Virus record (IMG/VR): IMGVR_UViG_3300035698_002589
Coordinates: 1-20,112 of that record
DNA: 20,112 bases
Source: a virus
Direction: 5' to 3' (one strand)
In this document: in pieces, positions 1,715-17,702 of the stretch
Position numbering within the stretch: the stretch's first letter is position 1
How the letters are laid out: every line of letters starts with the position of its first letter
Made by a program: the position numbers and the translations under genes
The notes under the pieces: generated by a model
What the model saw: only the letters and a program-made list of their open reading frames with translations
Databases searched by the model: none
Told to the model about the DNA's origin: nothing

Positions 1715-4351
1715 CTAAACCGTCTCTATGCTGAAGCCATGTATCGTAGCGGTGCCGCTGAACGTCAACCAGAAATACTCAGCTATGAAACTCATCGGAG
1801 CAGCCTTGCGCACCGTCTGTCTTGTGGCGGTGTCAAGCGTGTACTCCTGCGAATCTCCACGGCTCGTGTGCAGTGTCACCGTCTCGTCGCTGCCACCACA
1901 GTCTATGTCGAAAACGAGGCGCGCCACCCGCGTCGGCCTGCCGCTACCGTACTTCTTTGTCGTCAGCGCGACGGTAGTTGATTCTGACCCGGTCCCGACA
2001 GTGCTTATGTTCCCAGAACCAGTAGCAGTATACAACAAATTGTTATCGCCGTTTGCAGTAAACGCCGTCGGGTCTAACAAAACCCCTCCCCCAAGCGTTT
2101 CGCGGGTCCATTGAATTCCCTCGGCTGTCTTCCTGCCGACAAAAACAGGGTCATCCACCACGGTTCCACTAGCAACGAAAAACAACTGCCCGCGCCAAAA
2201 CTCGCCAGCCCACTCTACTCCACTATCGGAACCGCTGGAAGTTCCTCTTACATCTCGCCAATCGTCTTCAATCGCGTCGGTGAGCAACTGAGGGGCAGAA
2301 CCGTTATATGACCAGAGCCCTGTGCGCGTAGCCCACACAATCCCATACGGGGTGGTCACTACAGAATTAGGGTACTGACAACCGACAGGAGAGTCGATGT
2401 CGTCTATGTAACCGACCTCGTCTTCCTGCGAAAGAAGCGCCCAGCGACTATTGCAAAACACTGCTACCCTCGACCCGTACCTGCCCAATGCAGTGATAGT
2501 GTCACCGAACTCGTGGTACGAAGTAGCGTTTACATAGTCAGGAAAGCCGAACAGAGAGAAGTACAACTTGCTCCCCGAAGCATAGAACATCCGCCCGTTG
2601 TGGAAGAAACCCAGTCCGGAATCAGGCGGTACGCCGTGGTCAAGGTCACCGTGGATATACAGCGCTCCCAAGTCGGCGTCTCGTTTGGTGTCTATCACAG
2701 AGACGTATTCAGCGATGCCTGTGGCTGCGCTAGTCAACGCAGTGGTCGAGTTGAGGTAGTAGTCCGTCCCAGCCGCCTTCGTCCTGTAGAGGCGCAAAGA
2801 GGCCGTCACAGCGCCCTCGCCAGCGACGAGCTGCACAGACCCGCCTGCCGCCCATGCCGACCACAACGAGGTATCTACATATCCTGCGATATCATTACCA
2901 TCGGTGATCTTCAGCTTAAACGTGTTGGTCGCTTTGTCGCTGACGACGTAGTAGCCGGTGTTGCCGAGCAGTGCAGCCTCGTCTATAGGTACAAACACGC
3001 CGCCAGTAGTTTCGTCGGTGTAGTCGGTGGTGTCTACCGCATACCCGCGGCTGTCGCCACTCGCGTATTTCAGCGAGAAGGTCGTTGCTCCTATCGACAC
3101 CACCTCATAATCAGCGTCGTTTAGCTCAGTCATTTCGTCAAGACCAGAAATGCAAATTATCTCTCCACCAGAAAGGCCATGTGCAGCAGATGTCACAACT
3201 CCAGTAGCAGCCACAATCCCAGTGATCGTCTTCGTCGTCTTCGTCAACGCCGTGATAGACTTCACCTGTACGATGTCGCCGTCAGTGTACCCGTGAGCAG
3301 CACTCGTCACCACGGCCTCAGAAGCAGTAGACAACGCAGTGATAGTCTTCGCAGTGGCGTACTTCGCACTGTTGATATAGGAAGCGATATCACTTGCCGA
3401 TATGGTGGGCAGATGCACAGTGACAGCGTCTTCGGCAGCTATTACGATGGTGGTTTCAGAAGTGTCTTTGCCGTACCTGCCGCTGTACGGAATCGTGTAT
3501 ATCTGAGACTCAATCTCCTGCCCATCGGTCATCGTCACCACTACAGTAGAGCCATAAAGGAAGCTGCCGTCGAGCCCAATGCCTCCGGCCCTTACGGTGC
3601 CCGCGCTTGGCGTATACACATAGACGAATTCGTGAAAGTCGGTGGTGTCAACCGGCACACCGGCAGTTGTTTCTATGGTAAAATGGTCATCGTCTATTTT
3701 CTCAGTGATCGTATATGCTTCACCCACAAGCGTACCGGGACGCAAACCGGTGAGGGTGTCAAAGACAATCCTGTTGCCCGCGACAAACCCATGTCCAGTC
3801 ACTTCAAAAACGCCTGGGTCAGCGTATGTCATGTCTATCAAGGTTTGCGTAGCAGCCTCTTGAGCCACGTCTACGCCGAGGACTACCTGAGTGGGCACTT
3901 GCAGGTCGGTGAGCGTAGCCCTTTCCAGCGCACCTACAAGCCGCGTGTACGACCCGTCCCATACCTTCGGGCGCAAGACGACATCTGAACCATTTGTGTC
4001 GAAGATGTAAGCACGTCCGTCAGCTTCACTGAAAATCGTCCCGTAGTACCCGTCTCCCACCGCTCCAGAATAGATCAAACTAGCGGCAAGCGTTGCTGTA
4101 GTCGGGTCTTCGTAGATGTTTGTATCGCCGAGCCTAGCAACGTAGTGCTGCGTGCTGTCTCTGCGGAAAGAGATGATGTCAGAACGGTCCTCTTGCCTGT
4201 CAGCGACAATCTCAGTGGCGTCCTTTTGCGGGACGGCATGTCCAGACACCAAGTTGGCGTTGACAGCAGCCACGAGGTCGCCGTCTTTGAGAAGCGTAGC
4301 GTCTTTCATCACGTTGTAACCCGTGAAGATGCGTGTTCCGTAGGAGCCCAT
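1715..4351 (-). CDS. Large beta-rich tail protein (putative nozzle or tail-stem protein)
   Basis: The 878-aa product begins MGSYGTRIFTGYNVMKDATL. No signal peptide is present. Residues about 20-160 look like a beta-propeller-type start (repeated short strands, YIFDTNGSD). The middle (about 180-510) contains repeated beta modules with the pattern T-S-A-A-H-G followed by G-D/E-x-I: copies near 182-248, 346-375 and 384-454, and a degraded one near 462-508. These resemble the modules often labelled FCCH-like in phage tail proteins. The C-terminal third returns to propeller-like sequence (FHNGRMFYASGSKLYFSLFG; YGIVWATRTGLWSYNG). In podoviruses the large gene following the adaptors often encodes the tail nozzle, and the propeller pattern agrees with this. 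Start: AAGGGA eight bases before the ATG. The neighbours are the tailspike-like gene upstream (stop at 4364) and small ejection-type genes downstream. Nozzle is the best guess. A generic tail fibre or hub protein is the alternative. Confidence 0.85.
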   Translation of the reverse strand: MGSYGTRIFTGYNVMKDATLLKDGDLVAAVNANLVSGHAVPQKDATEIVADRQEDRSDIISFRRDSTQHYVARLGDTNIYEDPTTATLAASLIYSGAVGDGYYGTIFSEADGRAYIFDTNGSDVVLRPKVWDGSYTRLVGALERATLTDLQVPTQVVLGVDVAQEAATQTLIDMTYADPGVFEVTGHGFVAGNRIVFDTLTGLRPGTLVGEAYTITEKIDDDHFTIETTAGVPVDTTDFHEFVYVYTPSAGTVRAGGIGLDGSFLYGSTVVVTMTDGQEIESQIYTIPYSGRYGKDTSETTIVIAAEDAVTVHLPTISASDIASYINSAKYATAKTITALSTASEAVVTSAAHGYTDGDIVQVKSITALTKTTKTITGIVAATGVVTSAAHGLSGGEIICISGLDEMTELNDADYEVVSIGATTFSLKYASGDSRGYAVDTTDYTDETTGGVFVPIDEAALLGNTGYYVVSDKATNTFKLKITDGNDIAGYVDTSLWSAWAAGGSVQLVAGEGAVTASLRLYRTKAAGTDYYLNSTTALTSAATGIAEYVSVIDTKRDADLGALYIHGDLDHGVPPDSGLGFFHNGRMFYASGSKLYFSLFGFPDYVNATSYHEFGDTITALGRYGSRVAVFCNSRWALLSQEDEVGYIDDIDSPVGCQYPNSVVTTPYGIVWATRTGLWSYNGSAPQLLTDAIEDDWRDVRGTSSGSDSGVEWAGEFWRGQLFFVASGTVVDDPVFVGRKTAEGIQWTRETLGGGVLLDPTAFTANGDNNLLYTATGSGNISTVGTGSESTTVALTTKKYGSGRPTRVARLVFDIDCGGSDETVTLHTSRGDSQEYTLDTATRQTVRKAAPMSFIAEYFWLTFSGTATIHGFSIETV

Positions 4352-4363
4352 TATCGTCCCTTG

Positions 4364-6700
4364 CTAGTTCGTAATCGCCACAGAGACAGAGCCATTGTCA
4401 AGAAGGTTGTTGGCGCTTGTGGTAATCCTAAAAAGAATCCCCTCTACTCCAGCACCGAGAATCGCCTGATCAACCCCAACTATCTTAAATGCTCCATATG
4501 TCCCGCTCGTAGTCCCAACCTCAGTTGAATGCGTATCTGCCATGTCGGCAAGAGGGGTCGGCGGAGTGGCGCCAGAACCAGTATACGTCCATCCAGTTAT
4601 CTTGTGGTGGATCAATTCAATGTCCACGTTTCCCGTCGCACTGCCGAGCCACAAGCACTCAATGTCTGAAACAGTAAAATCGTTGTTGAAGTTATCCCAG
4701 TATTTGCAGAACCCATAGTCTACAAGCCGATCAGTACCAGCAGTCTTCTCTATGGCGACAGTCCCGAGCCACTTCTTCGTGGTTTCATAGTAGACATTTG
4801 CAGCAGCGCCGACTAATGATATAACCTCTGTATCGGTAGCTGTCCTGACTCCCGCGTCAGTGAGCGAAGTACCACTTACGGTCAACTCAGTATCGACAGC
4901 CCCGGCAGCAGCCACAACAAAGAGATGGGATGCGTAACTTGAATTGGCGGTGCCGAAGTTTACTGACGGATTGAAGTCGTTAGATGTCCCGCCATGTATA
5001 TAGTGCCCACCGGAATAGTACGTGCCTGCGTTAAGCCCCTCCGGCATCGGCCACGACATCACCTCTTGGTGGAACCCGCCGATGGGCTGCCAACCAGTGT
5101 TCCCTGTACCAGACTCTTTGACGTAGAGAGTCGTTCCTTTGCCGCCGTCTGTTTTCTGATAGGTAGATCCTATCGGAGCGGTTACTGCGCCTTCGGGAGA
5201 AAGAGAACCGGCTCGCTCATACACTCCAGCACGAACTCTAAATCCATCAATATCTATAAACTCGTTAGTCGTCAACAAAGCCGAACTAAAATTACATCCA
5301 GTTGACGAAAGCATGTTGCCTGAAATAGTAAGGTTGTCAATGGTTGCAGTAGGGGTCAATATAAATATATCCCTACTACCTGAATTAGTTATTGAGTTTC
5401 CAGTTATCGAAACATTGTCAACATCGTATCCAACAAAAATGCCACGCTCGTTGTTAGCAATCGTGTTGCCGCACACAACAATGTTTTCATTGCTGTAGCT
5501 CGCATCCTCAACCGCGATACCGTCCGCCTCTTCCCACGGGTCTTCTGCTTCTCCGGTGGCTGTCGTATCGTTCGTGATCAAATTACCAGACACCGTGGTA
5601 TTTCCTCGTTCGGCGACACCGCCACTGACTGCGATTCCTCGCTGAAATGCCGCACCACCCGTGCCAACAAGGATGTTCCCAGAAACAACACAGTCGCCTT
5701 CTTGAATCCCAATGCCAGCCCACATATTCCCAGTCCACGCGGTAGCTGCATATGTTCCCACCAGCGAAGTCGTGATGGTGTTCCCCGTTATCAACACACC
5801 TCTGTTCTGTATCTTTATCGCTCTCTTGGCACAATCCCTAAACACGTTGTTGGATATAACGGCATTTGCCGGGGTGTCACTATAGGACTCTCCATATTCT
5901 ACCATCTGTAAAACAATTCCATCAGCATCGTCAGATGGCGTAATGTCTTCGATAAGACATCCAGATATCACAATATCCTGAACCTGCACATCATTTGTAT
6001 TTGCGGTAGTTGTAAAATGTATCCCACGAGAAACCAATTGCGATGACGAGTCGATGTCGTGGATATGGCAATTGCGGATATAAATACCGGCAGATCCGGT
6101 AGTAGTGCTGTTCGTGACATAAATCCCATCAGACGCATTACATGAATCTGTCGCGTCCTCAAGGATATTATATATCTCGCAGTTTTCAATGAGCGCGTTG
6201 TCGCACCCGGCAAGGTGGATTCCCCTTGGGGCCAAATCAGCACCATTGATAGCAACGTTGATTATAGAGAAATCATCTGCCTTGTCGGCCTTTATCACAT
6301 GAGACGTAGTCGCGACAGTATGTGCGCAAAGGAGTATCGTACCAGATTCCCCGCGAATTGTCACACCGCTATTGTCTACAGACAGAGCAGAAGACAGAGA
6401 GTATGTCCCAGTAGGGAGATAAACTGTGCCGCCACCAGCGGCCTCTACAATGTTGATCACTGCCTGAAGCGAGTCGGTACAGTCTGTCGCTCCCGTGTTG
6501 TCCACGCCATAGGCGAGCACGTTGATAGGGGTGTGTCCATGCCGTTCGACAGTGTCCGTGGTGAGGATAGAAGCGCGGTCATAGGCACCGCCCCACTTGG
6601 TGTCCTCGACGCTCATGCGGCGCTGTGCGCCAGCGTCAAGCGGCCAGCCAACAAGCACGGCTACGGCTACGGCTGCGAGAAGAACTACAAAACGTTCCAT
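4364..6700 (-). CDS. Tailspike-like right-handed beta-helix protein with N-terminal signal peptide
   Basis: The 778-aa product, from the ATG at 6700 (AGAGG eight to nine bases upstream), begins MERFVVLLAAVAVAVLVGWP and reaches a plausible Sec cleavage site near DAGAQ, about residue 26. Residues about 58-110 carry the start typical of pectate-lyase-3 beta-helices: NVLAYGVDNTGATDCTDSLQ, then GGGTVYLPTGTY. Residues about 110-470 are a regular right-handed parallel beta-helix with many repeats of the type I-x-G-N-x-I-T (for example NVSITGNSIT, NLTISGNMLS). After it comes a phage-tail motif (SPEGAVTAPIGSTYQKTDGG, about 510) and a beta-rich C-terminal part. Such proteins bind and often cleave host surface polysaccharide. 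The signal peptide is odd for a virion protein assembled in the cytoplasm. The gene lies between the adaptors and the large tail protein. The helix part has lower G+C than its neighbours. The substrate cannot be told. An exported polysaccharide lyase that is not in the virion is the alternative. Confidence 0.88.
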   Translation of the reverse strand: MERFVVLLAAVAVAVLVGWPLDAGAQRRMSVEDTKWGGAYDRASILTTDTVERHGHTPINVLAYGVDNTGATDCTDSLQAVINIVEAAGGGTVYLPTGTYSLSSALSVDNSGVTIRGESGTILLCAHTVATTSHVIKADKADDFSIINVAINGADLAPRGIHLAGCDNALIENCEIYNILEDATDSCNASDGIYVTNSTTTGSAGIYIRNCHIHDIDSSSQLVSRGIHFTTTANTNDVQVQDIVISGCLIEDITPSDDADGIVLQMVEYGESYSDTPANAVISNNVFRDCAKRAIKIQNRGVLITGNTITTSLVGTYAATAWTGNMWAGIGIQEGDCVVSGNILVGTGGAAFQRGIAVSGGVAERGNTTVSGNLITNDTTATGEAEDPWEEADGIAVEDASYSNENIVVCGNTIANNERGIFVGYDVDNVSITGNSITNSGSRDIFILTPTATIDNLTISGNMLSSTGCNFSSALLTTNEFIDIDGFRVRAGVYERAGSLSPEGAVTAPIGSTYQKTDGGKGTTLYVKESGTGNTGWQPIGGFHQEVMSWPMPEGLNAGTYYSGGHYIHGGTSNDFNPSVNFGTANSSYASHLFVVAAAGAVDTELTVSGTSLTDAGVRTATDTEVISLVGAAANVYYETTKKWLGTVAIEKTAGTDRLVDYGFCKYWDNFNNDFTVSDIECLWLGSATGNVDIELIHHKITGWTYTGSGATPPTPLADMADTHSTEVGTTSGTYGAFKIVGVDQAILGAGVEGILFRITTSANNLLDNGSVSVAITN

Positions 6701-6718
6701 CAAAACAACCTCTTTGTG

Positions 6719-7450
6719 CTAGTCTGTGGCTGCGGTAGCGTAATCAGATACACGACCGTCTTCCCCGTCCTGCTCATACGGCGACCAGCCGGGAGCGCTC
6801 CTATGATAGAGAACCCTCGGCAACTTCCCATTCACGCGAATACGCAACCTCCGAGCAACGTACTTCGCCATCGCGCCATACAGCGCAGACGCCTCTATGT
6901 TTCTCAATTCAGTGTTTGAGGAAAACGCCCTCTCAAGCGCCCCAAACAACAGCCCCGCATACGACCACACCGGAATCTCGGGGTAGTTGTCGTCTGTCCC
7001 CAGATCGTATGGAGAGGCCAAATACTCCACGACCAAATGGCTTGTCCCCTCGCCCACGTAGACGGCGGCAGTGTCAGGTATCGGGTAGAGGCCGATCTCT
7101 CCGTCTAGGCCGTCTAGGTAGTACAGAGCGGGCTCTCCAGTGGTGTCAGCCCACGTCATGTCTATAGAACGAAGGTACTGCTTCGTCACCGGCCTCAACG
7201 CGCCGTCAGCATACGTCACTCGCAAGACCTTCACACAGTCTGCCGGTAGGGTATACTCACCCGTCTCTGCCGTCAGATCAATTGACATCCTCTCCTCGAT
7301 GCACTCGCTTTCGTCAACCAGAGAGCCTATAGAGGCGTTGAAAAATGTGTCCATAGAGGCTGACGCCAAGTGCACGGGACTAGTAGAACTGTCACCAGAC
7401 AGGCTATAAGCCAAGTCCTTCAAGTTACCGTATGTCAGTAGAGTGCTCAA
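6719..7450 (-). CDS. Head-tail adaptor-like protein 2 (paralogue of the preceding gene)
   Basis: The 243-aa product begins (TTG)STLLTYGNLKDLAYSLSGD. The TTG start overlaps the stop of the upstream adaptor gene (TTGA) and has GGAGG nine bases upstream. The next in-frame start is about 32 codons in, so I accept TTG. The fold appears to have N-terminal helices, a central beta part (EYTLPADCVKVLRVTY; TTGEPALYYLDG; GEIGLYPIPD) and C-terminal helices (YGAMAKYVARRLR). The motif E-P-x-x-Y-x-L-x-G followed by I-G-L-x-P is shared with the 219-aa neighbour, so the two are likely paralogues. Proteins with this P-x-x-Y and I-x-L-x-P pattern are common connector or tail-tube A-type proteins joining portal to tail in short-tailed phages. 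Function is inferred from this pattern and from location between head and tail genes. Confidence 0.82.
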   Translation of the reverse strand: MSTLLTYGNLKDLAYSLSGDSSTSPVHLASASMDTFFNASIGSLVDESECIEERMSIDLTAETGEYTLPADCVKVLRVTYADGALRPVTKQYLRSIDMTWADTTGEPALYYLDGLDGEIGLYPIPDTAAVYVGEGTSHLVVEYLASPYDLGTDDNYPEIPVWSYAGLLFGALERAFSSNTELRNIEASALYGAMAKYVARRLRIRVNGKLPRVLYHRSAPGWSPYEQDGEDGRVSDYATAATD

Positions 7451-8106
7451 ACCAGCCTACCTCCGCCTAGCAACCGTTGTCCTAGCCCGTCGCCATACTT
7501 GCCCTCGTACCGCACCCGAACGCGCGTGATTCCGCTGATATACTTCTCAAGGTACCAACCAGCCGCATTAGCATCGTATGGAGCAAGAAGTATCGTGAGC
7601 ATCATCGGAACGTAGGCATCGTCTATGTCCACGCTAGCCGCCGTGCCGTCTGTCGTCGTCAAACAAAACACTCCATGTACCCTGACGACCTGAGAAGCCA
7701 CAGACGTTATACGCGGCCATAGACCAATCTGCGCCTGACTGTTGGTGCCGGGAGTGCCTGACAAGAAGTATCTTGTTGGTTCACTCCCGGTATCTGTGTA
7801 CCACGTCCTGCCGAGATAGCGGCCGTCCATCTCAAGCGCGGTCGTGGGATCTATCCTGCCGTCTACGTCAGAACCATCGGTCAGCATCTCGACGTAATCG
7901 ACTTGTACTAACTCCTTGTCAAGGTCGTAGTAAACAGTGTCGTCCGTCAACGTGATGTCTTGATAGCTGTGGTACATGCTAGACTCTTCCCTGACGAGCC
8001 TATCGACAAGCTGAAACACTTCAAGAAGAACTGCATCAGTCCATCGGTCAGACGTGTCAGGTTCGTTTGCGCGCACCCTGGCATAGACATCAGTGACGAG
8101 AGACAT
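7447..8106 (-). CDS. Head-tail adaptor-like protein 1
   Basis: The 219-aa product begins MSLVTDVYARVRANEPDTSD. It starts with helices (WTDAVLLEVFQLVDRLVREE), passes through beta segments (TVYYDLDKELVQVDYVEML) and the motif SEPTRYFLSG then QIGLWPRI, and closes with a helical region (YVPMMLTILLAPYDANAAGW) and a Gly-rich tail. The N-terminal helical bundle and late beta core fit the head-completion or adaptor proteins that bind under the portal ring. It shares its core motif with the next gene downstream. The start has AGGTAGAA upstream. It follows the small head protein gene by nine bases, the usual position of head-completion genes. No specific family name can be assigned by eye. Confidence 0.82.
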   Translation of the reverse strand: MSLVTDVYARVRANEPDTSDRWTDAVLLEVFQLVDRLVREESSMYHSYQDITLTDDTVYYDLDKELVQVDYVEMLTDGSDVDGRIDPTTALEMDGRYLGRTWYTDTGSEPTRYFLSGTPGTNSQAQIGLWPRITSVASQVVRVHGVFCLTTTDGTAASVDIDDAYVPMMLTILLAPYDANAAGWYLEKYISGITRVRVRYEGKYGDGLGQRLLGGGRLV

Positions 8107-13218: not shown

Positions 13219-14999
13219 ACTATTCCTCCCGAACATTTAGCCAGCGCTTCGTCTACGTCGAGTTCTCTCTCTGCTGCTCCAAACGTACCCGGCCCCGGCG
13301 AATGCACCTTAGCGATGTAACCCAGCGGCCTCAAGTCAAACAGGTACGAGTCTGCGTCAACCGCGTGGTTGTCCTTCTGCATGATGCTCTCTGGGCGATT
13401 GCTGTGCTTGGCCACCGCAGAAGACTGCTCCGCCCACCTGAGCCCACAATACTCCCGACGTGTGTTAGGGCACGCATCGGTGATGTAAACCTTCGGCTTA
13501 GACGGCTCTCCCCAATAAACACTCTGGAACAACTTCGCTACGGGCACGTCTACGTCTCTGTTCCCCTTGCGGAAACGGATGCCTTGTTCAGCGAATAAGT
13601 CGGCTATTGATTGTTTGCCGCTCCTTACCTGCTGAGTGTTGGCCCATATGGACGGATCAGCTACGGACCACTCTAGCTTCTCCCAATAGGGGCATCCTTT
13701 GATCTTCTTCGCGTGCTCTACCAAATTGACACACGGCTCGTGTAGTTCCCAAACCTTGTACGCTTTCTTCTCGCCGTCAAACTCCCACACCCCGAAGCTC
13801 GAAGGGTTGGTGCTGCCATAGTCGTAGCACCCATAGTATTTCGACGTAGTGCTGGTTTTCCCCGCATGTTCTGCCGACACCTTCGGCGAGAACACTTCGC
13901 AGTCTATGTCAATCAAGAACGGATAGACCGGGTTGCCGCCCTTGGCGTCGTAGTCGATCTCGTACTCTCTACGCCAATCAGGGCTGTTCATTCCGCCAAC
14001 TTGACCTTGTAGTTGGTCCTGCACCCACGCACGACCCTCTGGTGTCCTCGGATCTTTAGCGGGGTCGGCGCTGTAGTGCACCTCAAGTACCCAAATCCCT
14101 GCGGGCGTTCTCCGGCTCCTCATGCCCCTTGGCAACCCACGAGGGAACCACCACTGGATAGACTCAGGAATCGGGTTGTCCCAAACCACCACGCCATCGT
14201 CGTCGGGCTCAAGGACAGCGTCTACGAAGTATCCCTGATCAATAGTGGAGGCCGCCAGAAACTTGCCGCCACGACCATCGAGGTATTTGCCACCTCGAAT
14301 GGCGGGGAGGATGGCGCCAACGGCGGCCCCGAATTCTTCCTGAAACGCCGCCTCGTCAGAAACGTATGCTGACGGCGTCTTCCCTCTGACCTGCTTGCTG
14401 CCCTGTGCAACAGCTTTGATTACTGACCCATGCCACGGCACCTTCACGCCGTTGTATCGCTGTGTAGGCGTATAGGCGAGCCGCCCAACGCCGTTACCGG
14501 GTCCGTTGATGATGTTCGGGTCTTGTAGCGCCTTCGGAAGCCACTGCTCTATGTGGTCTATCCGCCCCTCTGAGGGGGACGGCTGGCCCTTGCTCACCAT
14601 GTCCTGCGCGTCTTCTTCTTTCTGCGACTGCCACACCACGCGGCGCTTGGGGGCGAGCCTCGCCAACCACGCGCACATCCCTGATAGCCACCACGAAATC
14701 ATGATCTGTCGTGACTTCGGCACAAACAGCACAGGACACGCGAGCGCGAAAAGTGTCAACGCCTTCAGGTACGTCTTCTCATTCACCGGAAGCGGCTTAA
14801 TGGGATTGTCAACGTCGTGCGAGTCAAAGGTCTTCACGTGGTTCCAGAACTCCCAGATGCCACTATCGGCATAGCCCATCTTCTTGCCTGTAGTCGGGTC
14901 TACGTAGTCTGGATTACCATAATGGCAAACACGCGCATGACGATCAGCAAGTTGCTTGCGCTGGTCAGCAGTCAGTGCCGTTTGTTTGCCATATGACAT
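13209..14999 (-). CDS. terL: Terminase large subunit (ATPase and nuclease)
   Basis: The 596-aa product begins MSYGKQTALTADQRKQLADR. The N-terminal ATPase has a variant Walker A at 94-101 (PKSRQIMI), then a coupling-type segment (RVVWQSQKEEDAQD) and Walker B at 211-216 (AYVSDE, D215/E216). The C-terminal nuclease domain shows an acidic residue in YGCYDYGSTNPSSFGVWEF (D393), a second near VADPS (D448) and a third in DNHAVDAD (D548), which suit the RNase H-like metal site. TerL cuts concatemeric DNA and pumps it through the portal. Start: ATG at 14999 overlaps the TAA of the SGNH gene by one base (TAATG), with GGAGA eight bases upstream. The portal follows after one small gene. The putative small subunit lies about 4.2 kb upstream instead of adjacent. 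Confidence 0.95.
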   Translation of the reverse strand: MSYGKQTALTADQRKQLADRHARVCHYGNPDYVDPTTGKKMGYADSGIWEFWNHVKTFDSHDVDNPIKPLPVNEKTYLKALTLFALACPVLFVPKSRQIMISWWLSGMCAWLARLAPKRRVVWQSQKEEDAQDMVSKGQPSPSEGRIDHIEQWLPKALQDPNIINGPGNGVGRLAYTPTQRYNGVKVPWHGSVIKAVAQGSKQVRGKTPSAYVSDEAAFQEEFGAAVGAILPAIRGGKYLDGRGGKFLAASTIDQGYFVDAVLEPDDDGVVVWDNPIPESIQWWFPRGLPRGMRSRRTPAGIWVLEVHYSADPAKDPRTPEGRAWVQDQLQGQVGGMNSPDWRREYEIDYDAKGGNPVYPFLIDIDCEVFSPKVSAEHAGKTSTTSKYYGCYDYGSTNPSSFGVWEFDGEKKAYKVWELHEPCVNLVEHAKKIKGCPYWEKLEWSVADPSIWANTQQVRSGKQSIADLFAEQGIRFRKGNRDVDVPVAKLFQSVYWGEPSKPKVYITDACPNTRREYCGLRWAEQSSAVAKHSNRPESIMQKDNHAVDADSYLFDLRPLGYIAKVHSPGPGTFGAAERELDVDEALAKCSGGIVCL

Positions 15000-16945
15000 T
15001 ATTCAGTCGTCTCCAGATACCCGCCAGGCCCGTCTGCCTTCTGCTCGACCTGGAGGCCCCAGAAGTAATTGCCGACGCCGGCGGTGTTGACGCCCTCGAA
15101 CGGGAACATATTGACATACCACGCATCAGCGGCCTGCGCTGCAGTCAGATCGACTTCGAGATAAAACCGATACCAGCCATCACCGATAAGACGGTTTCCA
15201 TAATTCGTTGTGATGGCGGAGCCGAAGTAGACGGGGGCGCCAGACGACCATGTGTATTGAAGATATACGCTCGTTGCCGGGCTGGCGCACTGGAGACGTA
15301 TACCGAACTTCGACCCAGCTCCATACGGTTTTGCATACCAGCTCAACGTATAGGTGCCAGCACCCGACGTAATCGGGCTGGCGTCCGTCTGGATGTTTCC
15401 CCATTGCCCATCGGCTGCGGTGTGATAAGCGTATGCGTCCGACCCACCGTCAGGAGCAGAAGCGTTCTTTACCGCAGTCCACTTATCAGCAGACGCACCG
15501 CCAAGCCAATCGGTCGCGTCAGGATAATAAATCTCACTCGCCAAAACGCTATTTTCAAGGATCGGCTGGAACGCTCGGAACTGCGAATAGATCGCGTCGG
15601 CCATCTGGTTGTTACCAGTAGTCGTCGGGTGGATGCTGTCGCTTTGCAAAGTCACCTTATGGCCGTATGCATCATCGCGCACGCTACGGATTACCGATGC
15701 GGCAGCATATCCATACTCGCGGTCAACCCATAGATTCGCGCCGCACACAGACACGTTGTCGTCATATGCTTCGCCGTCGTATGCAGCGATAATCCTTCTC
15801 GCGAGATCGTTCATCGCGTTTTGTGCCGAGATCCATTCAAACGTCACGGATGAAGGACTGGCGTCGCCGTCGATCTTGCCCCCCGGAGGTTCGATAGCAA
15901 TGATGATCTTCGCGTGGGGGAACCCGTAGGTCGTGCTCGTGAGCGCATCCATGATCGTCGCCAAGTTGGTCGCGATAGTTCCAACATCGACAACCGTCGT
16001 CGCGTTGTCGGCGGCGAGTAGACAGTCGTTGATTCCAAGCGTGATCACCACGACGTCGGGCCACCACTGCGAATAGGTCGCCGCGTAGGTGCGGAAGTCG
16101 AGCCGCGAGTTTGTGAAATCATAGAACGGGTTCTGCCCGCTGGCAGCAGCAGCGGAAAACGCAACGGTCGCGTCACCCGTGCCGGACGCCTTTGTCAGAT
16201 CGCCGGACGCCTCGGGTGCGCCGGTGCCTGTACAGAAGACCTCGTCCCACGCCGCGCGGTCTTCAACAACCGTGAACGTCTTGCTATTGTTCGTGTAGGT
16301 GTCGCCGACGACTGCGGTGACAGTGTTCGCCACGGTAAAGGCGTAGCCGTTGGACCCGTATCCTGCATATTTTTCCAGCGTCCACCCGGCGCGCCCTTCG
16401 TGCTCGTCGGGGTTTGCGCCGAGGATTCCGATATGGTCGCGGTCAGCACCACCGTCAGCGTCGATCATGTTGCCGATCTCGCCGATATAGGATGTGGCCG
16501 TGGTCAAGCTGTCGCCGATGTAGAGGATGTGCTGGTTGCCGTCTCCGGTGTCCTCGGCTACGCTCTTGAGTACCGTGCTCGTAGACCCGATCCGGTTCCC
16601 GTGACTGTCGATTGCATAAATATCAAGGTCATGCACGAGCCACGCCGAAGCCGGCGACCACTGGAAACAGTTGTGCTTGATGTCGCCGACGTCACAGTCG
16701 ACGGTGAACGAGCACGGCTCCATCCCCGGCTGGATAAGCGCGAGCTGGTCCCAGTGCAGATTCAACTGGCAGGCCGTTCCGCCGGTCCGATAGGCAACAT
16801 AGATGGTGTCTGGAACAGTAAACTGTGGCATATATTTTGTTGACGCGCTATGTCGCCCGATACCATGCTGTGCCTCCGCAACGCCAGCAAACACAGCAAG
16901 CGCGACCATCAATGGCAGGAGGAAGCCAATGAACTTCGACTTCAT
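14999..16945 (-). CDS. Secreted SGNH (GDSL) hydrolase with C-terminal carbohydrate-binding-like domain
   Basis: The 648-aa product begins MKSKFIGFLLPLMVALAVFA, a Sec-type signal with cleavage probable near GVAEAQ (about 26). SGNH blocks are visible: GDSLT at 144-148 (nucleophile S146), a possible block II Gly in EGRAGWT (about 183-189), LGIND at 303-307 (oxyanion N306) and DSIHP at 436-440 giving D436 and H439. Together these predict an esterase/deacetylase. Residues about 205-275 hold an inserted beta module (GDTYTNNSKTFTV; DLTKASGTGDATV) of a type seen in phage structural proteins. Residues about 470-648 form a jelly-roll-like domain (TYTLSWYAKP; YFWGLQVEQK) suggesting sugar binding. A role removing acetyl groups from surface polysaccharide is likely. 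Start overlaps the upstream stop (ATGA). The stop overlaps the terL ATG. Whether it is on the virion or secreted is open. Confidence 0.9.
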   Translation of the reverse strand: MKSKFIGFLLPLMVALAVFAGVAEAQHGIGRHSASTKYMPQFTVPDTIYVAYRTGGTACQLNLHWDQLALIQPGMEPCSFTVDCDVGDIKHNCFQWSPASAWLVHDLDIYAIDSHGNRIGSTSTVLKSVAEDTGDGNQHILYIGDSLTTATSYIGEIGNMIDADGGADRDHIGILGANPDEHEGRAGWTLEKYAGYGSNGYAFTVANTVTAVVGDTYTNNSKTFTVVEDRAAWDEVFCTGTGAPEASGDLTKASGTGDATVAFSAAAASGQNPFYDFTNSRLDFRTYAATYSQWWPDVVVITLGINDCLLAADNATTVVDVGTIATNLATIMDALTSTTYGFPHAKIIIAIEPPGGKIDGDASPSSVTFEWISAQNAMNDLARRIIAAYDGEAYDDNVSVCGANLWVDREYGYAAASVIRSVRDDAYGHKVTLQSDSIHPTTTGNNQMADAIYSQFRAFQPILENSVLASEIYYPDATDWLGGASADKWTAVKNASAPDGGSDAYAYHTAADGQWGNIQTDASPITSGAGTYTLSWYAKPYGAGSKFGIRLQCASPATSVYLQYTWSSGAPVYFGSAITTNYGNRLIGDGWYRFYLEVDLTAAQAADAWYVNMFPFEGVNTAGVGNYFWGLQVEQKADGPGGYLETTE

Positions 16946-17289
16946 CGTAACAGCCCCCTGACTTCTACTGTATCTGTTTGCGAAGCCACGAGAACCGTAT
17001 CAACTCTGCCAGCGTAAACATATGAGTCACCCGGAAGCAACACAAACGGACGCTTGTCGCCGCCATCACTGGGCGTTCTTACCCGGATACTAGATGTACC
17101 GCGAGAATAGATATCAACTCCTGCCGGATACTTGACATCTCCATCCTCATCTGTCCAATAAACGACAACGTCTTCACCAGCAGTAGATCCGTCGCTAAAT
17201 TGAATTGGCCGTGAGGAAGAAAATCCCCACGCGCAAACCGCTGCACACACGACAAGAAGCGCAGCCACTATCAAAGAAATCTTTCTCAT
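16942..17289 (-). CDS. Secreted beta-rich protein of unknown function, 115 aa
   Basis: The product begins MRKISLIVAALLVVCAAVCA, a signal peptide with basic n-region and hydrophobic core, cleaved probably near ACAWG (about 20-22). The mature part (about 93 aa) is beta-rich and acidic, with DVVVYWTDEDGDVKYPAGVD, SIRVRTPSDGGDKRPFVLLP and GDSYVYAGRVDTVLVASQTD. No cysteines remain in the mature part and no enzyme motif is seen. The ATG has AGGAG seven bases upstream. The stop overlaps the ATG of the SGNH hydrolase (ATGA), so the two are co-translated and may work together. A small capsid- or tail-decorating beta-sandwich or partner of the hydrolase is possible. The family is not recognised. Confidence 0.75.
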   Translation of the reverse strand: MRKISLIVAALLVVCAAVCAWGFSSSRPIQFSDGSTAGEDVVVYWTDEDGDVKYPAGVDIYSRGTSSIRVRTPSDGGDKRPFVLLPGDSYVYAGRVDTVLVASQTDTVEVRGLLR

Positions 17290-17372: not shown

Positions 17373-17702
17373 CTACCTCGCTACGCTAATCGAAACGTTT
17401 ACCATAAGCGCGTATGCAACGGCACCAGCTACGAACCAAAGTCTGTGGTCGTCATACCAGTGCCGCCCATTCTCGTCTATCTCGCGCTCCAGCCACCCGA
17501 TCTTGAGGCTGTTAAGTGTCTGTGCGCTGTCAGCCTCTATGTGGGCGAACAGCAAGTCTCTCTCCAACCGCACTACATCAAGCTCAAGAGACTCGGCGTA
17601 CCGTTCGAGGTCAGTCTTCGGCTGGATGGTTTCTTGCCCATTCGCCAGCACGGTCATTGACATCACCATCAGCAAGGTCAGCCACGCGATTTTCAGCCTC
17701 AT
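17373..17702 (-). CDS. Signal peptide plus C-terminal TM protein, putative spanin-like
   Basis: The 109-aa product begins MRLKIAWLTLLMVMSMTVLA, a signal peptide with likely cleavage after ANG (about 22). A periplasmic helical, charged stretch follows (about 24-85; DLERYAESLELDVVRLERDL), then a hydrophobic C-terminal segment at about 88-107 (LWFVAGAVAYALMVNVSISV). This N-outside, C-terminal anchored arrangement is the topology of a unimolecular spanin (periplasmic coiled coil between outer and inner membrane), but the lipobox cysteine expected at its N-terminus is absent. It overlaps the 91-aa gene by 92 bases, an overlap style usual for Rz/Rz1 pairs. A spanin subunit is plausible. Another periplasmic membrane protein is not excluded. 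Confidence 0.72.
   Translation of the reverse strand: MRLKIAWLTLLMVMSMTVLANGQETIQPKTDLERYAESLELDVVRLERDLLFAHIEADSAQTLNSLKIGWLEREIDENGRHWYDDHRLWFVAGAVAYALMVNVSISVAR

Follow-up and report, generated by a model that had tools for sequence, protein, structure and literature searches.

The window analysed here is an entire IMG/VR record of 20,112 bases, which may be a piece of a larger genome, and its virion and lysis genes are carried on the minus strand. Going downstream, these comprise a probable TerS, small candidate holin- or spanin-type genes (with a weak DUF2514 match), the gene for a 115-aa protein, an SGNH hydrolase gene and a probable TerL, followed by a portal with weak matches to SU10_portal and phrog_156, then by genes for a zinc-ribbon protein, a scaffold-like product and a major capsid protein matching phrog_9953. 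Beyond the capsid gene come a further small protein, a pair of SU10-type adaptors, the spike, a protein matching phrog_511 and, where ejection proteins would be expected, two small genes. TerS, TerL, scaffold and ejection are names given mainly on the basis of position and size. The spike gene, which runs from an ATG at 6700 to a stop codon at 4364-4366, is closely spaced with its neighbours and sits within the tail operon of a podophage, flanked by an adaptor gene and a gene resembling P22 gp10, the latter being placed through synteny with MW202803 by position only. Distant relatives of the window capsid are found in MW202803, Mx8 and Mx9. The zinc-ribbon protein (PF09723, 10580-11047, minus strand) adjoins the portal, and the gene in the same place in MW202803 is annotated as a DNA-directed RNA polymerase. 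No match to the window capsid protein was obtained among 388 Verrucomicrobiota genomes searched for host inference, a search that had no positive control. The coordinates of the features discussed below are collected in Table 1.

Table 1. Features of the window and of two cultured-phage fibre genes used for comparison.
Feature	Position	Strand	Evidence
Signal-peptide-bearing tailspike gene (predicted signal), 778 aa	4364..6700	-	ORF, Shine-Dalgarno site, Pfam, PHROGs
Shine-Dalgarno AAGAGG, 8 nt before the spike ATG	6709..6714	-	Sequence
Predicted Sec/SPase I signal peptide, residues 1-25, cleavage between AGA and Q	6626..6700	-	n-h-c filter; AF2 helix at residues 2-16
Right-handed beta-helix, residues ~58-470	5291..6529	-	Pfam; AF2 (confident only at ~57-180); fold search
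Tail-fibre module SPEG...LYVKESGTGNTGW, residues 478-547	5060..5269	-	tblastn to cultured phages; alignments A1 and A3
C-terminal domain, residues 548-778	4367..5059	-	No Pfam or PHROGs family match
Two SU10-type adaptor genes just upstream of the spike (6719-7450 and 7447-8106)	6719..8106	-	Pfam PF24175
Gene just downstream of the spike, in the position of the P22 gp10-like stabilisation protein	1715..4351	-	phrog_511 internal virion protein
SGNH/GDSL hydrolase, 648 aa, with its own predicted signal peptide (MKSKFIGFLLPLMVALAVFAGVAEA followed by Q)	14999..16945	-	Pfam PF00657/PF13472; signal-peptide filter
115-aa protein with signal-peptide-like N-terminus, overlapping the start of the SGNH gene	16942..17289	-	Signal-peptide filter; no Pfam or PHROGs match
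Burkholderia phage BcepC6B gp19	L314:7001-8074		
Xanthomonas phage PBR31 gp35	L313:7001-7810		

The spike matches the Pfam families Beta_helix (5e-17) and Pect-lyase_RHGA_epim (1e-14), its best PHROG is tail spike (6e-27), and alginate epimerases are among its nearest sequence matches in the PDB. The AF2 model has a pLDDT of about 90 at residues 61-120 and mostly of 68-91 up to residue 180, is poor past residue ~255, and shows a helix at residues 2-16 followed by a low-confidence stretch at residues 17-55. A Foldseek search with this partial model returned PARMER_00599, AlgE4/6, ORF18 of Geobacillus virus E2 and RbmB, with the Sf6 tailspike lower down; a polysaccharide lyase (RbmB) and alginate epimerases are thus among the fold neighbours. 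Pfam, PHROGs and the fold search thereby bear out the first-pass annotation, which had described a beta-helix tailspike-like protein. Pfam matched no domain before residue 58, and only ~32 residues separate the predicted cleavage site from the helix. The module that follows the helix also occurs C-terminally in fibres and spikes from phages of Klebsiella, Pseudomonas, Gordonia and Acinetobacter.

The N-terminus of the spike up to its predicted cleavage site (MERFVVLLAAVAVAVLVGWPLDAGA followed by Q) has a textbook-like Sec/SPase I pattern, with the n-region MER, an uncharged h-region of ~15 residues (FVVLLAAVAVAVLVG) whose best 12-residue Kyte-Doolittle mean is 3.3, and the c-region WPLDAGA, which places an alanine at both -3 and -1. 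Cleavage is predicted between A25 and Q26 and would leave a mature protein of 753 aa; the removal of a signal that had been proposed earlier is thus retained, at a length of 25 rather than 26 residues. The sole soft spot of this putative signal peptide is its weak n-region charge, which is zero if the N-terminal amine is ignored. As E2 and R3 cancel, the spike failed the first version of our home-made, heuristic n-h-c filter, which required a net n-region charge of at least +1 with the amine ignored; the rule was loosened once, to zero, because the amine adds a charge, and this was done after the spike had been seen to fail. With the relaxed filter the spike passes, as do 575 of 20000 shuffles of the spike and 48 of 4816 internal positions of the window genome, which makes the pattern a chance event of ~1-3% per start with the Shine-Dalgarno site left out of the count. 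The filter result by itself is good but not overwhelming evidence, and is raised by the Shine-Dalgarno site at the start and by the comparative data presented below. The n-h-c pattern noticed in the first reading thus stands, given the filter pass, the AxA motif and the well-placed start. The RR expected of a twin-arginine signal is absent ahead of the h-region, no lipobox cysteine for SPase II occurs in residues 1-30, and the predicted site between AGA and Q sets the N-terminus apart from signal-anchor-release helices, which have no cleavage site.

Two further ideas about the spike were rejected. A dual start, in which the internal ATG at codon 29 yields a cytosolic virion form, has no Shine-Dalgarno site at that codon, and only L051 among 15 genes scanned has an internal start with a better site; oxidative folding via cysteines was dropped, as the spike has 13 Cys and most other signal-peptide-bearing fibres have few.

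The spike is accompanied by other genes whose products have signal-peptide-like N-termini. The SGNH hydrolase, a second and probably glycan-active gene product of the window, lies together with the overlapping 115-aa gene between the small lysis-type genes and TerL, and its product has no match among cultured phages. A 109-aa protein (17373-17702, minus strand), which starts inside the DUF2514-like gene, combines a signal-like N-terminus with a hydrophobic segment at its C-terminal end.

Tailspikes normally have no signal peptide, the premise from which the first-pass annotation had started, and this general knowledge agrees with our survey of environmental phage fibres and spikes, in which most module-bearing fibres are without one. 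A strong signal peptide was nevertheless present at an upstream ATG in 11 of 78 distinct non-truncated module-bearing viral ORFs as compared to 3 of 1238 internal start codons, rates that are not strictly comparable per start since each ORF offers several upstream starts. The loci were chosen by similarity to module-bearing queries and the second round was seeded with signal-positive members, so that 11/78 is not a population frequency. In a control of 80 loci chosen by capsid similarity alone, signal-peptide-like N-termini were found in 0 of 230 proteins of more than 400 aa and in 4 of 295 proteins of 200-400 aa; by inspection two of these four look false, and the other two (L146 and L161) belong to the fibre family of BcepC6B gp19 and PBR31 gp35. 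In the operons whose context was read, fibres with signal peptides have a 934-aa tape-measure-like protein on one side and a gpJ-like one on the other (operon G002), or lie between an ordinary tail-fibre anchor gene and a second short fibre followed by lysis genes (operon G009, where the second fibre has a signal-like N-terminus missed by the filter), or form a run of three consecutive signal-peptide genes after a 2210-aa protein (operon G001). At L283:4630-12147 three such genes follow that of a 2210-aa protein, the third with fibronectin type III domains. The signal-bearing fibres of other phages are fibre-like over their whole length, the regions after the signal in L051, L061 and L283 resemble, by eye, the N-terminal adaptors of ordinary fibres, and in L041, L063 and L291 the signal drifts ahead of a conserved AQ(T/V)K. 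The Bcep22-like fibres of BcepMigl were found to have no signal peptide, and the virion proteomics of JC1 consequently does not bear on the question of exported fibres.

Several side observations were made among these loci. One Verrucomicrobiaceae MAG contains an L041/L063-type fibre. L193 and L183, contigs of a Peregrinibacteria MAG bin, carry phage-like runs of consecutive signal-peptide genes whose signals differ and whose mature N-termini (DTHQTVPSANFSFMSDLQNFLR) are identical. In L178, L199, L215 and L197, on Paenibacillus and Nocardioidaceae contigs, proteins whose N-termini are Tat-like end in the fibre module.

The control locus L161, whose fibre matches PHROG tail fibre families, leads to cultured phages, namely to gp19 of Burkholderia phage BcepC6B and gp35 of Xanthomonas phage PBR31, with L315-L394 as further members. 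The proteins of this family, whose annotations say no more than tail fiber or structural protein, share a conserved signal peptide followed by LNPxQLLNPAGSTSGQAIVSTG, and 58 of 60 distinct members in IMG/VR have an in-range start and a signal; L382 has no start codon in range. Between random pairs the 12-residue core of the signal is 26% identical and the adjacent 20 residues 83%, and a charged, amide or His residue occurs at just 4 of 696 core positions; these statistics on core hydrophobicity, charge and identity are independent of the relaxed charge rule. Signal peptides under selection evolve in this manner, with a drifting core and a retained layout and adjacent segment, and the export of some phage fibres is on this pattern very probably real. 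One member, L387:3986-4789, retains the adaptor segment and has no signal (MSTSPTLVPVQLVNPTGS...), and so provides a natural comparison. The fibres of this family adjoin lysis genes in several members, and in both BcepC6B and PBR31 an ordinary spike without a signal peptide adjoins the signal-bearing fibre, which suggests a separate job for the exported fibre in these phages.

For the window spike, export is predicted from its own sequence and by analogy with these fibres, and we give an even chance to its being a Sec-exported, tailspike-type polysaccharide depolymerase that acts outside the cytoplasm. The host Sec pathway would export the spike and the signal peptide would be removed, after which the mature beta-helix, probably a trimer, would fold in the periplasm and outside the cell and would degrade the surface glycan of the host itself, aided by the SGNH esterase that the phage also encodes and would export. 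The phage would likely benefit in that receptors or matrix are stripped from the producing cell and its debris, so that progeny are released rather than re-adsorbed. What we infer here extends to export, cleavage, catalysis, trimerisation, substrate, timing and benefit alike. The reading is supported by the signal predicted for the SGNH hydrolase of the same phage and by the repeated occurrence of signal peptides among fibres and spikes of phages unrelated to one another, both of which go beyond what the first-pass annotation had seen. Of the two branches offered by that annotation, the depolymerase exported before lysis is thereby supported, through a cleavable-looking predicted signal, the signal on the SGNH companion and fibres that evolve as bearers of signal peptides do, with export itself at the level of prediction. 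Against it we counted the weak n-region charge, a location in the tail operon that would be expected of a virion protein, a module typical of virion proteins, the adaptor-like regions in L051, L061 and L283, the finding of no signal peptide in the late genes of the sister phage MW202803, and the want of a close relative in the collections. No relatives of the spike, TerL, portal or (by single-sequence search) major capsid protein were found in IMG/VR, which leaves the window as the only member of its lineage in the collections for judging whether the signal is conserved.

The gene's place between adaptor and gp10-like genes, its fibre module and the adaptor-like regions behind the signals of L051, L061 and L283 could also be accounted for if the cleaved spike waited in the periplasm and joined virions as lysis mixed the compartments, its main role then being receptor binding on the virion. 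We know of no spike that is exported and then assembled, the virion-anchored spike of BcepC6B and PBR31 is a different gene without a signal peptide, and the short stretch between the predicted cleavage site and the helix holds no recognised virion-binding domain; we consider such assembly after export rather unlikely, though the strongest of the competitors. It is more doubtful still that a secreted beta-helix enzyme of cellular origin, or a moron, was recently acquired here and retains the signal it came with, without a part to play in the virion. The module does occur in proteins with Sec- or Tat-like N-termini on bacterial contigs (Paenibacillus L178 and L199, Acidobacteria L181, Flavobacteriales L189), and the alginate epimerases among the PDB matches point the same way, but the short-spaced late-operon position, the tail spike PHROG as best match and the fibre-like character, over their whole length, of the signal-bearing fibres of other phages all count against this origin.

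An uncleaved hydrophobic N-terminus could fix the spike to a membrane or to the tail of the virion, the other branch offered by the first-pass annotation, and the hydrophobic helix and the operon location would suit it. The c-region is clear, however, with alanine at -3 and -1, and comparable families retain the n-h-c layout and the small-residue site despite a drifting core, which is not expected of an anchor; we regard this as the weakest reading, very improbable and not favoured. We set equally little store by chance resemblance, with the spike staying in the cytoplasm, for instance by translation mainly from the in-frame ATG at codon 29: although ~1-3% of the shuffles or positions satisfy the filter, a Shine-Dalgarno site precedes the first ATG whereas codon 29 has none, and the signal recurs in other fibres.

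Beyond this one gene, the odds seem to us evenly balanced that Sec-exported fibres and tailspikes form an overlooked, repeatedly evolved class of tailed-phage proteins, receptor-binding or receptor-destroying, which act off the virion by stripping or masking receptors or dissolving matrix, or which are added to virions only once lysis has occurred. The common assumption, which annotation pipelines follow in their naming, is that tail fibres and spikes are made in the cytoplasm as parts of the virion; our literature search, of partial coverage, found no paper on signal-peptide-bearing tail fibres as a class. If a recurrent subset is indeed exported, such genes would not determine host range in the usual way, there would be a dedicated cause for the depolymerase haloes and the loss of receptors around infected cells, and corrections would be needed in phage proteomics and in the prediction of host range. 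The availability of BcepC6B and PBR31 in culture makes the question of fibre export directly testable.

Among known systems, the P22/Sf6-type podophage tailspikes (pectate-lyase-like, PF12708) share with the window spike a beta-helix and a tail-operon gene, and the Sf6 tailspike was among its fold matches; these are, however, cytoplasmic proteins with an N-terminal virion-binding domain and no signal peptide, whereas the window spike has a signal-peptide-like N-terminus with a Shine-Dalgarno start and only the short linker before its helix. WceF of Pantoea stewartii provides a precedent for the favoured reading, as an exported enzyme with a trimeric tailspike fold that cuts the exopolysaccharide of its own cell (PMC7949094), but it is a cellular, Tat-exported protein from a polysaccharide cluster, while the window spike belongs to a phage tail operon and has a Sec-type predicted signal. 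The endolysins that some phages secrete, Lys44 of fOg44 for example, and SAR endolysins are likewise sent out by the host Sec pathway before lysis (PMC6116005); these enzymes target peptidoglycan and time lysis, in contrast to the glycan-type beta-helix and fibre module found here. The SGNH esterase gp40 of PBR31 has an N-terminal export signal, lies near lysis genes and was suggested by its authors to have a role in lysis (PMC10975493); the SGNH hydrolase of the window resembles it in family, predicted export signal and vicinity to lysis genes, gp40 being much shorter at 215 aa. The gp19/gp35 family has in common with the window spike that a phage fibre-type protein bears a signal peptide, but its members are short fibres without a beta-helix and without sequence relation to the spike. 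The proposed class of signal-peptide-bearing phage fibres is defined by a strong signal peptide at an upstream start followed by fibre or spike domains, and the window spike, with its predicted signal, beta-helix and fibre module, has this arrangement.
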